A DNA stretch of 64,000 nt from Bacillota bacterium (GTDB taxonomy: Bacteria > Bacillota > DSM-12270 > Thermacetogeniales > Thermacetogeniaceae): contig JABLXW010000002.1 of assembly GCA_013177945.1 (NCBI GenBank), forward strand, positions 1 through 64,000, written 5' to 3'. Both the position numbers and the translations under genes were made by a program. Within the stretch, counting starts at the first letter, position 1, and every line of letters starts with the position of its first letter. The notes beneath the pieces were generated by a model that was not told the DNA's origin, ran no database searches, and saw only the letters and a program-made list of their open reading frames with translations. Shown here one piece after another: positions 36,738 to 39,363 of this stretch.

Positions 36738-36820
36738 GTCGGAGTGGCGGAATTGGCAGACGCGCACGTTTGAGGGGCGTGTGGGCAACCGTGCGGGTTC
36801 AAGTCCCGCCTCCGACACCA
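36738..36820 (+). tRNA. tRNA-Leu (anticodon GAG)
   Basis: The acceptor arms GTCGGAG and CTCCGAC pair fully and CCA is encoded. The anticodon stem CACGT/GCGTG encloses the loop TTGAGGG, giving anticodon GAG (Leu). The T arm GCGGGTTCAAGTCCCGC is standard, and the extra arm between GCGTG and the T arm is of the long class II type expected for tRNA-Leu. Confidence 0.95.
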
Positions 36821-37167
36821 TCTTTAGACGCACGGAGGTTTATCCTCATAACAACCTCTACTCGATTGTCAGGGTAGAGGTTAATTGTTTCTATGTACCT
36901 TTCGATAATCTGCTTCAAGTTGTGTGGCTCCACCTCATCCAAAATTTAAAGATTCCCCGGACTGAATTAAGGTACTTAAATGAACATTTTGCTTAGCATA
37001 TTGCTTGATATAGTTCACAGGCTCACCTGCTTATCCATGTAAAATAGTGTTGAAAATTGTCATAATGCCCTAAATTAAAGCCGAAACCTGCTGCGGTTAA
37101 AAGTAGCAGGTTACTTATTCGTCGTTTCGATCCTCACCCGGCTGAAAACCGCGGGTACAAATAAAAT
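36821..37167. other. Intergenic stretch with two hairpins
   Basis: No gene is supported in these 347 bases. A 9-bp hairpin (AACCTCTAC at 36853-36861 with GTAGAGGTT at 36874-36882, then AATTGTTTC) may terminate tRNA-Leu. A second hairpin, AACCTGCT (37085-37092) with AGCAGGTT (37105-37112), could end the minus-strand toxin-antitoxin transcript. The sequence between is AT-rich and featureless to my eye. Confidence 0.5.
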
Positions 37168-37449
37168 TTATTTTTTGTAAACATCTCCGCGGGGCCCTAT
37201 GGCCTCAATAATTATTAATCGTTCTTCGATTTTTACGTTATAAATAATCCGTATGTCACCAAGGCGGTACCTGTACTTTTGGCTAAAGCCGCGCAATGGC
37301 TTAATGTTTGGCCCGCGTATAGGGTTGGCGCAAATTGTCTCAATTGCAGTCGCAATGCGTTTCTGGATGGACCTGTCGGCACGTTTAAGATAGCTGCGAG
37401 GCTGGGCTAATAGCTGGACTTTATAGGTCGAGTTCTCGCTTGAGTTCAT
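37168..37449 (-). CDS. RelE/ParE-family toxin
   Basis: This 93-aa protein fits the RelE/ParE toxin fold: YKVQLLAQPRSYLKRAD, then IATAIETICANP, then the strand set KPLRGFSQKYRYRLGDIRIIYNV and a C-terminal IEAIGPRGDVYKK. RelE-type toxins cut mRNA on ribosomes, and ParE-type inhibit gyrase; I cannot tell which from sequence. The ATG at 37449 overlaps the antitoxin gene by 29 bases, a usual arrangement for such pairs. The antitoxin gene lies upstream on the same strand. Confidence 0.85.
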   Translation of the reverse strand: MNSSENSTYKVQLLAQPRSYLKRADRSIQKRIATAIETICANPIRGPNIKPLRGFSQKYRYRLGDIRIIYNVKIEERLIIIEAIGPRGDVYKK

Positions 37450-37798
37450 CCCAGCTAAGGCCGCCTTCCTGATATTGCCCCTCACTCAAGGTTGCTCTCT
37501 CGCTTTCCGGCCAGTCCAGGTAAATGCAGTCGCGACATACGGGGCAAATGAATTCGTCATGCCAGGTTTCGCTTTCCTCCGCATTTGGATTATCCAGTAG
37601 ATCAGCCAGCACCAGAGGCGTGCCGCATACGGGACAAAATGGGTCAATGTAAAATGGTTTGTTGCCAGGGCGCGGTTTGGCTGCGCTTTCTGGTTGTCCG
37701 CTTTTTACCAGCCTTTCCAGATACCTTTTGGCCCTTGCTATGTTTTGTTCCGGAAGCCTGTCAACCAGGCGGTGGAGCTCTTCCTTGGGCAAGCTCAT
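37421..37798 (-). CDS. Probable antitoxin with an inserted zinc-ribbon domain
   Basis: This 125-aa protein precedes and overlaps a RelE/ParE toxin. Its N-terminal helical part (KEELHRLVDRLPEQNIARAKRYLERL) and C-terminal tail (GLSWDELKRELDL) match the two ends of short toxin-neutralising antitoxins. Between them is a zinc-ribbon-like insert with CPVCGTP and CPVCRDC, unusual in antitoxins. It should bind the toxin through the C-terminal tail and repress its own promoter. GGAAGGGTG lies before the ATG at 37798. Antitoxin function is inferred from position and ends. Confidence 0.7.
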   Translation of the reverse strand: MSLPKEELHRLVDRLPEQNIARAKRYLERLVKSGQPESAAKPRPGNKPFYIDPFCPVCGTPLVLADLLDNPNAEESETWHDEFICPVCRDCIYLDWPESERATLSEGQYQEGGLSWDELKRELDL

Positions 37799-37827
37799 CA
37801 AAAATCACCCTTCCTGGAGTGTACTTA

Positions 37828-38034
37828 CTACTTGGCCTCTTTGCACTGCTTGCCTCTCCGCCTCTTTAGGCCGTTAATGAAAATGGCTAAGTCCATGATA
37901 TCTAGTTTCCCGTCCTGATTTAGATCAGGGCGGGGTGTCGCGATGCCACCAAGAGGGGGTAGAGGGGTCAGGTTGGGTATGGTTGCCGGAAGGCTCATTG
38001 CCAAGAAGGTAATCAGCAGAAACATTAAAAACAT
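37828..38034 (-). CDS. Small exported protein with a single dockerin-like repeat
   Basis: This 68-aa protein has a hydrophobic N-terminus that looks like a signal peptide or anchor (about residues 1-20), a Pro-rich linker (PNLTPLPPLGG) and one calcium-binding loop of dockerin type I (DLNQDGKLDIMDLAIFINGL). Dockerins normally have two such repeats and sit on cellulosomal enzymes; here there is one and no enzyme. It may be a decayed remnant or a small calcium-binding protein. The RBS is weak, so the start is uncertain. Confidence 0.5.
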   Translation of the reverse strand: MFLMFLLITFLAMSLPATIPNLTPLPPLGGIATPRPDLNQDGKLDIMDLAIFINGLKRRRGKQCKEAK

Positions 38035-38314
38035 CGGCTAATTTTTTAATTTACCCTCACTAAGCTGTTTGCTGATTTTAGTGTATCCATATTCGGCAAA
38101 AATAGCAATGAGCAAATAGGTGAAAACATAGATCATTCTCCTTCTGGAGGAGGAATATCTGGAGGCAATTGCTGTCGTATTTTACCAGGATGTGCCAGGA
38201 TGTGTTCACTGATGCACCTTTTGGTGTGGCGCAGCGGGGGTCTCCGCCGCGCTGCCTGCGGGGAGGAGAAAGATGCCTTTTAAGGAGCAAGAAGGGAAAA
38301 GGCATTTACAAAAA

Positions 38315-38682: not shown

Positions 38683-39222
38683 CTATTTTTTAAAACTGTT
38701 CTTGAAGAGGTTATTTTTGCGTTTGGACAGGCCTCGCGGGGGAACCGCATCGGGGTCGAAGGAGTTGCAGGCGGAGCTGCTGGCTAAAATCCAGTTGACG
38801 ATTAGCCGCGCCTTTTCCAGCACTTCGTCTGCGAAATCGCGGTCGTAAACGCTTCTCACCAGGGTGTAGTGGGGATTTAAAAAGGCAAGTGCATCATGAA
38901 CCTCGGCGGGAAGGTTGGGAAAAACTTTTTTCGCGAGCACCAGAAGGTTGTTTTCGCTTGGAATCGTTTCCCCCAGTAAACCAGGATAGTTTGCCTTTAG
39001 GAGCTTTTCGAGGGCCTGCCGGATGAGCAGGGTGGCCTGATCGTACTGGCTTTTTTGGTACATTTCCAGTGCCATGTTCCAATCTTTCTGAGCATCCCTC
39101 AGGCAGTAAGAAGCCTCTCCCTTTTTGGGGCGGGGTTTGCGTTTTCCAAAGGGCCAGAAGAGATCCGCAGGGCTCAGAAGATCGAAAAGACCCGGAACCC
39201 TTTTTATTTTTTCCTCTCCCAT
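38683..39222 (-). CDS. HEPN domain-containing protein
   Basis: This 179-aa protein carries a HEPN-type helical bundle (about residues 40-150): AQKDWNMALEMYQKSQYDQATLLIRQALEKLLKANYPGL, followed by LAFLNPHYTLVRSVYD, the counterpart of the usual LSxxYxxxRYPD segment. HEPN proteins are often nucleotidyltransferase partners or RNases in toxin-antitoxin and defence systems, but the RNase RxxxxH motif is not obvious. The C-terminal tail is Lys-rich. ATG 39222 follows AAGGGGGGTG. No MNT nucleotidyltransferase is adjacent. Confidence 0.8.
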   Translation of the reverse strand: MGEEKIKRVPGLFDLLSPADLFWPFGKRKPRPKKGEASYCLRDAQKDWNMALEMYQKSQYDQATLLIRQALEKLLKANYPGLLGETIPSENNLLVLAKKVFPNLPAEVHDALAFLNPHYTLVRSVYDRDFADEVLEKARLIVNWILASSSACNSFDPDAVPPRGLSKRKNNLFKNSFKK

Positions 39223-39363
39223 TTTTGCACCCCCCTTCATTTTCCTTTAATTTCATTTTAGACCCGGGAGTTTCCCGCGTCAACGCGACGGTGCTTTAAA
39301 AGGCAGGGTTCGGCGCGGAAAAGCGAGGAAGAGCAAAATGGTTATTTTTTTTCCTTCGAATTG

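Follow-up and report, generated by a model that had tools for sequence, protein, structure and literature searches.

The window, by which we mean the whole 64,000-nucleotide stretch of DNA analyzed here, carries a real, rare and new variant of the type II toxin-antitoxin arrangement, in which the antitoxin appears to have kept the ordinary RelB-like ends while a portable zinc-ribbon domain would have replaced the usual acidic linker between them. The antitoxin most likely starts at the ATG at 37798, one codon after the TTG listed by the program. Its N-terminal arm reads KEELHRLVDRLPEQNIARAKRYLERLVK, and the C-terminal arm is, by its position, probably the toxin-binding segment. The two CPVC motifs of the module (residues 55 to 58 and 85 to 88) are spaced as CxxC-x26-CxxC, and one extra cysteine is present at position 91. 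Conservation in 23 of 26 loci, together with selection, rules out that these are chance cysteine pairs, and a sequence error or frameshift fusing two genes is ruled out by the identical layout in eight full-length relatives (in the antitoxin alignment the window protein stands with 10 relatives, of which two are truncated at the C terminus).

Table 1. Features of the toxin-antitoxin locus and its surroundings, in window positions
Feature	Position	Strand	Basis or remark
tRNA-Leu (GAG), island edge	36738..36820	plus	synteny with genome G001 ends here
Relic island holding the pair, about 1.5 kb	36821..38309	.	no match to the same site in the genus-mate G001
RelE/ParE-superfamily toxin (predicted), 93 aa from ATG 37449	37168..37449	minus	PF05016, E 2.8e-8; PHROG 1213, RelE-like, 5.6e-17
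Overlap of antitoxin end and toxin start, 29 nt	37421..37449	minus	both ORFs
Antitoxin-like gene with zinc-ribbon insert, 125 aa	37421..37798, stop included	minus	AGGAAGGG box 9 nt before ATG
C-terminal arm, residues 100-125, ending SWDELKRELDL	37424..37501	minus	putative toxin-binding role, from position
Zinc-ribbon module, residues 36-99 (C55, C58, C85, C88)	37502..37693	minus	profile searches
Recombinant tract, codons 41-78	37565..37678	minus	43% different from G115 vs 7% outside
N-terminal arm, residues 1-35, KEELHRLVDRLPEQ...KRYLERLVK	37694..37798	minus	matches ordinary antitoxins
Xre-type repressor gene remnant, about 40 codons	37928..38050	minus	25/41 identities to the Xre gene next to the G350 copy

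The product of the second gene is, as judged from its sequence, a member of the RelE/ParE superfamily, and to this level the toxin assignment of the preliminary description stands: the PF05016 match scores 34.7 bits against a curated cut-off of 23, the PHROG match is RelE-like, and the protein is similar to PDB entries 2khe ("toxin-like protein") and 1wmi (PHS013), the latter of which we take to be aRelE. Within the superfamily, the protein is probably a RelE-type mRNA interferase. Residues K50, R53, R62, R67, R87 and Y91, judged against the basic residues and C-terminal Arg and Tyr that we presume to be typical of RelE-type toxins, are invariant in all six aligned rows, and the PRG..YK segment aligns with 1wmi. 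TIGR02385 (RelE_StbE) was absent from the NCBIfam matches of the window toxin, and the YoeB/Txe profile match fell below its cut-off (TIGR02116, 17.2 bits against 51.8). The ATG at 37449, inside the antitoxin gene, is most likely the toxin start and is favored over the listed GTG at 37485, since the corresponding Met is aligned in all four full-length relatives and locus L018 has no in-frame upstream start codon. The resulting 29-nt overlap recurs at all four of the other loci whose toxin is intact. Neither window ORF is broken, and the genes are adjacent, overlapping and conserved together, as in type II pairs; we consider that they very probably form such a pair. The toxin ORF is predicted to be toxic. 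With regard to expression, autoregulation lacks sequence support, since no sigma-70-like promoter was found in 37000-38100 and the island showed a single inverted repeat (38011-38077), more than 200 nt ahead of the antitoxin start. A terminator-like hairpin pattern (37806-37821, minus strand) overlaps the ribosome-binding box of the antitoxin; three terminator-like sites were found in 37000-38100, against 1.5 expected.

When the whole antitoxin was searched against 149 related genomes, full-length copies were found in four of them, including the window's own, and nine further rows matched only or mainly the N-terminal arm; two weak ribbon-only rows (L011 and L012, E 0.005-0.008) were left uncounted. 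Two ordinary antitoxins, L010 (88 residues) and L014 (85), are encoded directly before RelE/ParE toxins; their two arms resemble those of the window antitoxin and enclose an acidic linker. Five others (L007, L008, L009, L013 and L016) have the N-terminal arm in common with the window antitoxin and carry other ends, with no toxin evident next to them, and exclusion of the long proteins L015 and L017 reduced the N-arm rows from nine to seven. N-arm-like sequence (e.g., KNELHQLVDALPEEK) heads the proteins L002, L015 and L017, of about 540 residues and by eye of the PAS/GGDEF kind. As to RelB-like antitoxin profiles, the window protein had no NCBIfam match. Its relatives L010 and L047 score 15.3 and 14.0 bits against NF048017, for which 50 are needed, and L014 does not match it, indicating that profile libraries cover this family poorly. 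The AlphaFold model, built from a two-row alignment (mean pLDDT 47.7), was too poor to use.

A search of 149 related genomes with the toxin yielded 12 loci, three of which carry the ribbon antitoxin. The ribbon was not found at the nine others (1.6-3.3 kb of sequence per locus) or at the seven short N-arm loci, within flanks no longer than about 1.5 kb, a few of which stop short at contig ends. The preliminary description had proposed an antitoxin with the usual two ends and a four-cysteine insert between them: the same arms indeed occur in L010 and L014, and the insert proved to be a module conserved in 23 of 26 loci. The search for homologues that it called for returned 13 antitoxin-lineage loci among those 26, and the possibility it raised, that the ribbon is common in this antitoxin family, does not agree with the 16 related loci checked, where no ribbon was found. 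Its remark that no common RelE/ParE partner has this layout fits the same loci, although a zinc antitoxin, MqsA, of a different layout, is known for the RelE-fold toxin MqsR (PMC2791442). A literature search mainly covering non-subscription papers returned no earlier description of the ribbon module or of the layout.

The ribbon itself is a conserved domain of about 64 residues. A seven-row profile, window row included, was run over 398 genomes drawn from the phylum and matched 10 of them at E < 1e-20, six of which lie beyond the profile's own rows (G225, G350, G317, G216, G309 and G312, E 6.2e-21 or better); 7 of the 17 matched genomes, at E 3.5e-5 to 9.2e-4 only, were left uncounted (e.g., L036, by eye a Nudix protein). 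With a 13-row profile, the module was found in 12 of 113 genomes of one class, 3 of 22 of another, 2 of 20 of the window's own class and 3 of 82 of a further class, in genome sets that overlap and with profiles that contain some of the genomes found. Three more records came from a proteobacterial MAG (L019), Paenibacillus cellulosilyticus (L020) and an Alicyclobacillus curvatus plasmid (L021); L018, from a Syntrophomonadaceae MAG, proved by its length and sequence to be the G094 contig. The total is 26 loci. Half of them (13) belong to the antitoxin lineage, with four cysteines in 12 and the second half only in the G445 copy. Fic proteins with an N-terminal ribbon account for three, free-standing small ORFs for five (G309, G312, G574, G529 and L021), and other or decayed forms for the remaining five (G454, L019, L020, G450 and G485). 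The G450 ribbon precedes a methyltransferase and has lost one cysteine, and the second cysteine pair of L019 is C-x4-C. All four cysteines are kept in 23 of the 26 loci, a count that the cysteine-bearing profile favors. Residues other than cysteine (RP.NKPFYIDP, W.DE and DWPE) are also conserved across the unrelated host proteins.

The module found in antitoxins, Fic proteins and free-standing proteins is portable, to go by these sequences, and very probably binds zinc. In Pfam, the zinc-family matches of the scanned ribbon proteins all stayed below their cut-offs (best matches of 18.1 bits against 26.3 for the window protein, 22.8 against 27 for L031 and 22.2 against 26 for L020), and NCBIfam and PADLOC, run on the window protein only, gave none above theirs. 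The PDB gave no convincing ribbon match (best E 0.051); among PHROGs, the window protein reached 0.026 at best, and L020 reached 1e-4, with an unnamed family. A phage origin was considered and dropped: the phage collection had no match, and viral contigs gave four weak ones (30-35%) and had nothing matching the toxin. In two genomes that belong to one genus (L031/L099 and L100), a free-standing ribbon of about 70 residues lies between genes that by eye resemble pfkA and the pyruvate kinase gene, and since the ribbon also stands alone in such a place, its basic job may be unrelated to toxins.

The three Fic proteins (G216, G426 and G424) carry the same ribbon as the window antitoxin, at a terminus and on an enzyme of another fold, whereas in the antitoxin it is inserted. 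All three contain HPFxDGNGR and SxxIEGN, which we take as Fic-identifying motifs; PF02661 matches the G216 protein, and the other two are 80-81% identical to it. Each Fic locus (L029, L058 and L059) adjoins a gene that by eye encodes a tyrosine recombinase-like protein, 78-81% identical to that of L029, which suggests a second mobile setting. Elsewhere, the ribbon neighbors other toxin-antitoxin genes, not being fused to them: HicA and/or HicB are encoded separately beside it in L021, L026 and L055, a HicB-like gene with no HicA match adjoins it in L060, and in L030 its neighbors are a PF14076 (DUF4258) gene and an MqsA-like gene (18.1 bits, below the cut-off of 30).

Sequence comparisons within the antitoxin lineage show purifying selection on the N-terminal arm, the ribbon and the toxin in most of the pairs compared. 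Silent change exceeds replacement change in these three regions in nearly every pair; among window pairs, dN/dS is 0.08-0.20 for the module in six of seven (the nonsaturated ones) and 0.13-0.17 for the toxin. One N-arm pair has a dN/dS of 0.98, and several module pairs are saturated. No clear purifying selection was seen on the C-terminal arm (dN/dS from 0 to 2.1), which is short and lies partly in the overlap.

Over the first two-thirds of the module, the window antitoxin gene is a mosaic produced by recombination. Nucleotide identity to G115 is 0.91 in the N-terminal arm, 0.92 in the C-terminal arm and 0.88 in the toxin, and 0.73 in the module. Within codons 41-78 the window shares more with L018 (identity 0.75) than with G115 (0.57); just before the tract, the values are 0.85 and 0.92, respectively, and just after it 0.76 and 0.97. 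Because the nearest relative switches from G115 to L018 there, this tract has another history than its flanks. In a scan of eight pairs with 300 codon permutations each (values per pair, without correction), the contrast was reached by 0 of 300 permutations for window-G115, window-G001, window-G317 and L018-G115, by 2 for G115-G317, 14 for window-L018, 18 for G115-G490 and 155 for G115-G423. In the ribbon tree, in which 1 of 15 inner branches is starred, 10 antitoxin rows fall on one side of a branch (support 86/81, 90% of bootstrap trees). Since all antitoxin rows lie on that side, the data are most simply explained by a single capture, after which lineage members swapped the module among themselves. 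The portability of the module and its exchange by recombination also imply that the ribbon is probably not specific to neutralizing this toxin.

The window pair is the leftover of a mobile island that inserted behind tRNA-Leu and has since decayed. It lies between tRNA-Leu and a gene that by eye is ferredoxin-like. The G001 flanks are collinear with the window at 73-77% identity; homology stops at the tRNA end and resumes at 38310. At the same tRNA-Leu site, G001 has other DNA and no pair; its own ribbon antitoxin is encoded on a different contig, beside a toxin truncated at residue 23. The site is likely an integration hotspot. By eye, a short piece at the G001 site (L097, ~2497-2966) is tyrosine-integrase-like. 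A dockerin gene at 37828-38034 (PF00404, 17.9 bits against a cut-off of 22.9) was considered and dropped, as the same stretch in another frame is the decayed Xre repressor gene. A HEPN-domain gene (PF05168) at 38686-39240 has a match in 13 of 20 family genomes, including the window's own. In G350 and G423, the antitoxin (with the toxin in G423 contig 17) is followed by a gene for an ImmA/IrrE-type peptidase, matched by PF06114 in G350, and by a gene that by eye is serine recombinase-like; in G225, a frameshift interrupts the antitoxin, and HicBA stands where the toxin would be. The setting as a whole points to mobile-island cargo. ImmA/IrrE-like peptidase genes lie near 5 of the 13 lineage loci, broken in two of the five and absent from the window, in flanks ranging from a 1.7-kb contig end up to the whole window.

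Decay within the lineage is one-sided. The toxin is intact at five of the 13 loci (window, G094, G115, G490 and G423 contig 17), always beside an intact antitoxin; it is broken at four (G001, G317, G425 and G445), and was not found at three (G225, G350 and G423 contig 26); the remaining locus, G423 contig 51, lies at a contig end. The three G423 copies are near-identical and not independent. An intact antitoxin accompanies a broken or absent toxin at four loci (G001, G317, G425 and G350), and an intact toxin with a broken antitoxin occurs at none of the 13. This four-to-zero bias points the way one would expect of a second gene that does harm by itself; with such small numbers, it is no more than suggestive.

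Precedent for zinc in an antitoxin comes from MqsRA, which like the window pair joins a four-cysteine zinc domain to the antitoxin of a RelE-fold toxin. The MqsA zinc domain is N-terminal (Cys 3, 6, 37 and 40), binds the toxin and is followed by a helix-turn-helix domain (PMC2791442), whereas the window ribbon is central. Membership of the MqsA family was ruled out: the cysteines are central, and neither PF15731 nor a helix-turn-helix matched the window protein at E up to 10. The RelBE/ParDE-like systems, by comparison, have the same toxin family (PF05016), gene order and antitoxin ends as the window pair, and differ in the acidic linker that L010 and L014 carry at the place of the four-cysteine module. 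Zinc-free MqsA is degraded by ClpXP, and oxidation of its cysteines has been proposed to block zinc binding and so permit this degradation, according to PMC10846083, citing others. Control of the window antitoxin by zinc or redox state is plausible by analogy.

As the best explanation, we tentatively favor a type II pair from a relic island in which the ribbon replaced the linker and made antitoxin stability dependent on zinc or redox state, thereby freeing the toxin; that the ribbon plays a regulatory zinc or redox role we hold, equally tentatively, to be possible. The replacement would most simply have occurred once, in the ancestor of a small lineage. The N-terminal helical arm would probably serve dimerization and operator contact, and the C-terminal SWDELKRELDL segment would probably block the toxin. 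Loaded with zinc, the ribbon would act as a folded spacer, ordering the antitoxin and making it less prone to proteolysis; once zinc is lost or the four cysteines are oxidized, it would unfold, the antitoxin would be degraded and the toxin set free. Homology, gene order and overlap, conservation and selection, the recombinant mosaic and the relic setting were observed in the sequences; the roles of the two arms, zinc binding, toxicity and the switch are what we infer.

A somewhat less probable account is that of an ordinary type II pair whose ribbon is a structural spacer, constitutively loaded with zinc, that holds the arms apart and senses nothing. The structural, noncatalytic zinc of MqsA (PMC2791442) fits this account, as does the exchange of the ribbon tract with no matching change in its flanks, which is expected of an interchangeable spacer. 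Yet the non-cysteine residues conserved across unrelated hosts suggest a specific surface, beyond the needs of a spacer. Those residues, and the presence of the same module on unrelated kinds of protein and as free-standing ribbons of about 70 residues, would suit a ribbon that binds an outside partner (a protease, a chaperone or a nucleic acid), the same across its host proteins, to which the antitoxin would be delivered. We regard this as unlikely, however, as ribbon loci have no constant neighbor gene, the ImmA/IrrE-like peptidase being near only 5 of the 13 lineage loci. That the window pair is an inactive relic kept by chance seems very improbable: although the Xre neighbor is a remnant and toxins are broken or missing at 7 of the 13 lineage loci, both window ORFs are intact and the low toxin dN/dS in window pairs speaks against it.

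A broader reading concerns the peptidase neighbors. Oxidative treatment of Deinococcus increases free zinc and stimulates IrrE, a peptidase that depends on zinc; this zinc was proposed to come from cysteine sites that release it, although deletion of a candidate small CXXC protein, DdrS, made no difference (PMC7907104). By analogy, a ribbon gene adjoining an ImmA/IrrE gene, as at 5 of the 13 lineage loci, the window excluded, would fit this picture. The ribbon could then be a portable zinc/thiol switch captured independently by several unrelated systems (the RelE-type antitoxin, Fic proteins, genes beside HicAB and DUF4258/MqsA-like pairs), with zinc from the oxidized ribbon helping to activate the adjoining peptidase. 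We consider this reading improbable. If it were true, one redox event would free both a toxin and a mobile element.

How the toxins of chromosomal toxin-antitoxin pairs are released is a matter of continuing debate. An antitoxin whose metal-binding insert is separable, together with checked relatives that do without it, offers a natural with/without comparison for control by metal or redox state. In the libraries searched the module is unnamed, and since it occurs on unrelated proteins, its ligand would explain several proteins at once. As the module standing alone and on unrelated proteins hints, zinc or oxidation could contribute to the timing of toxin release.
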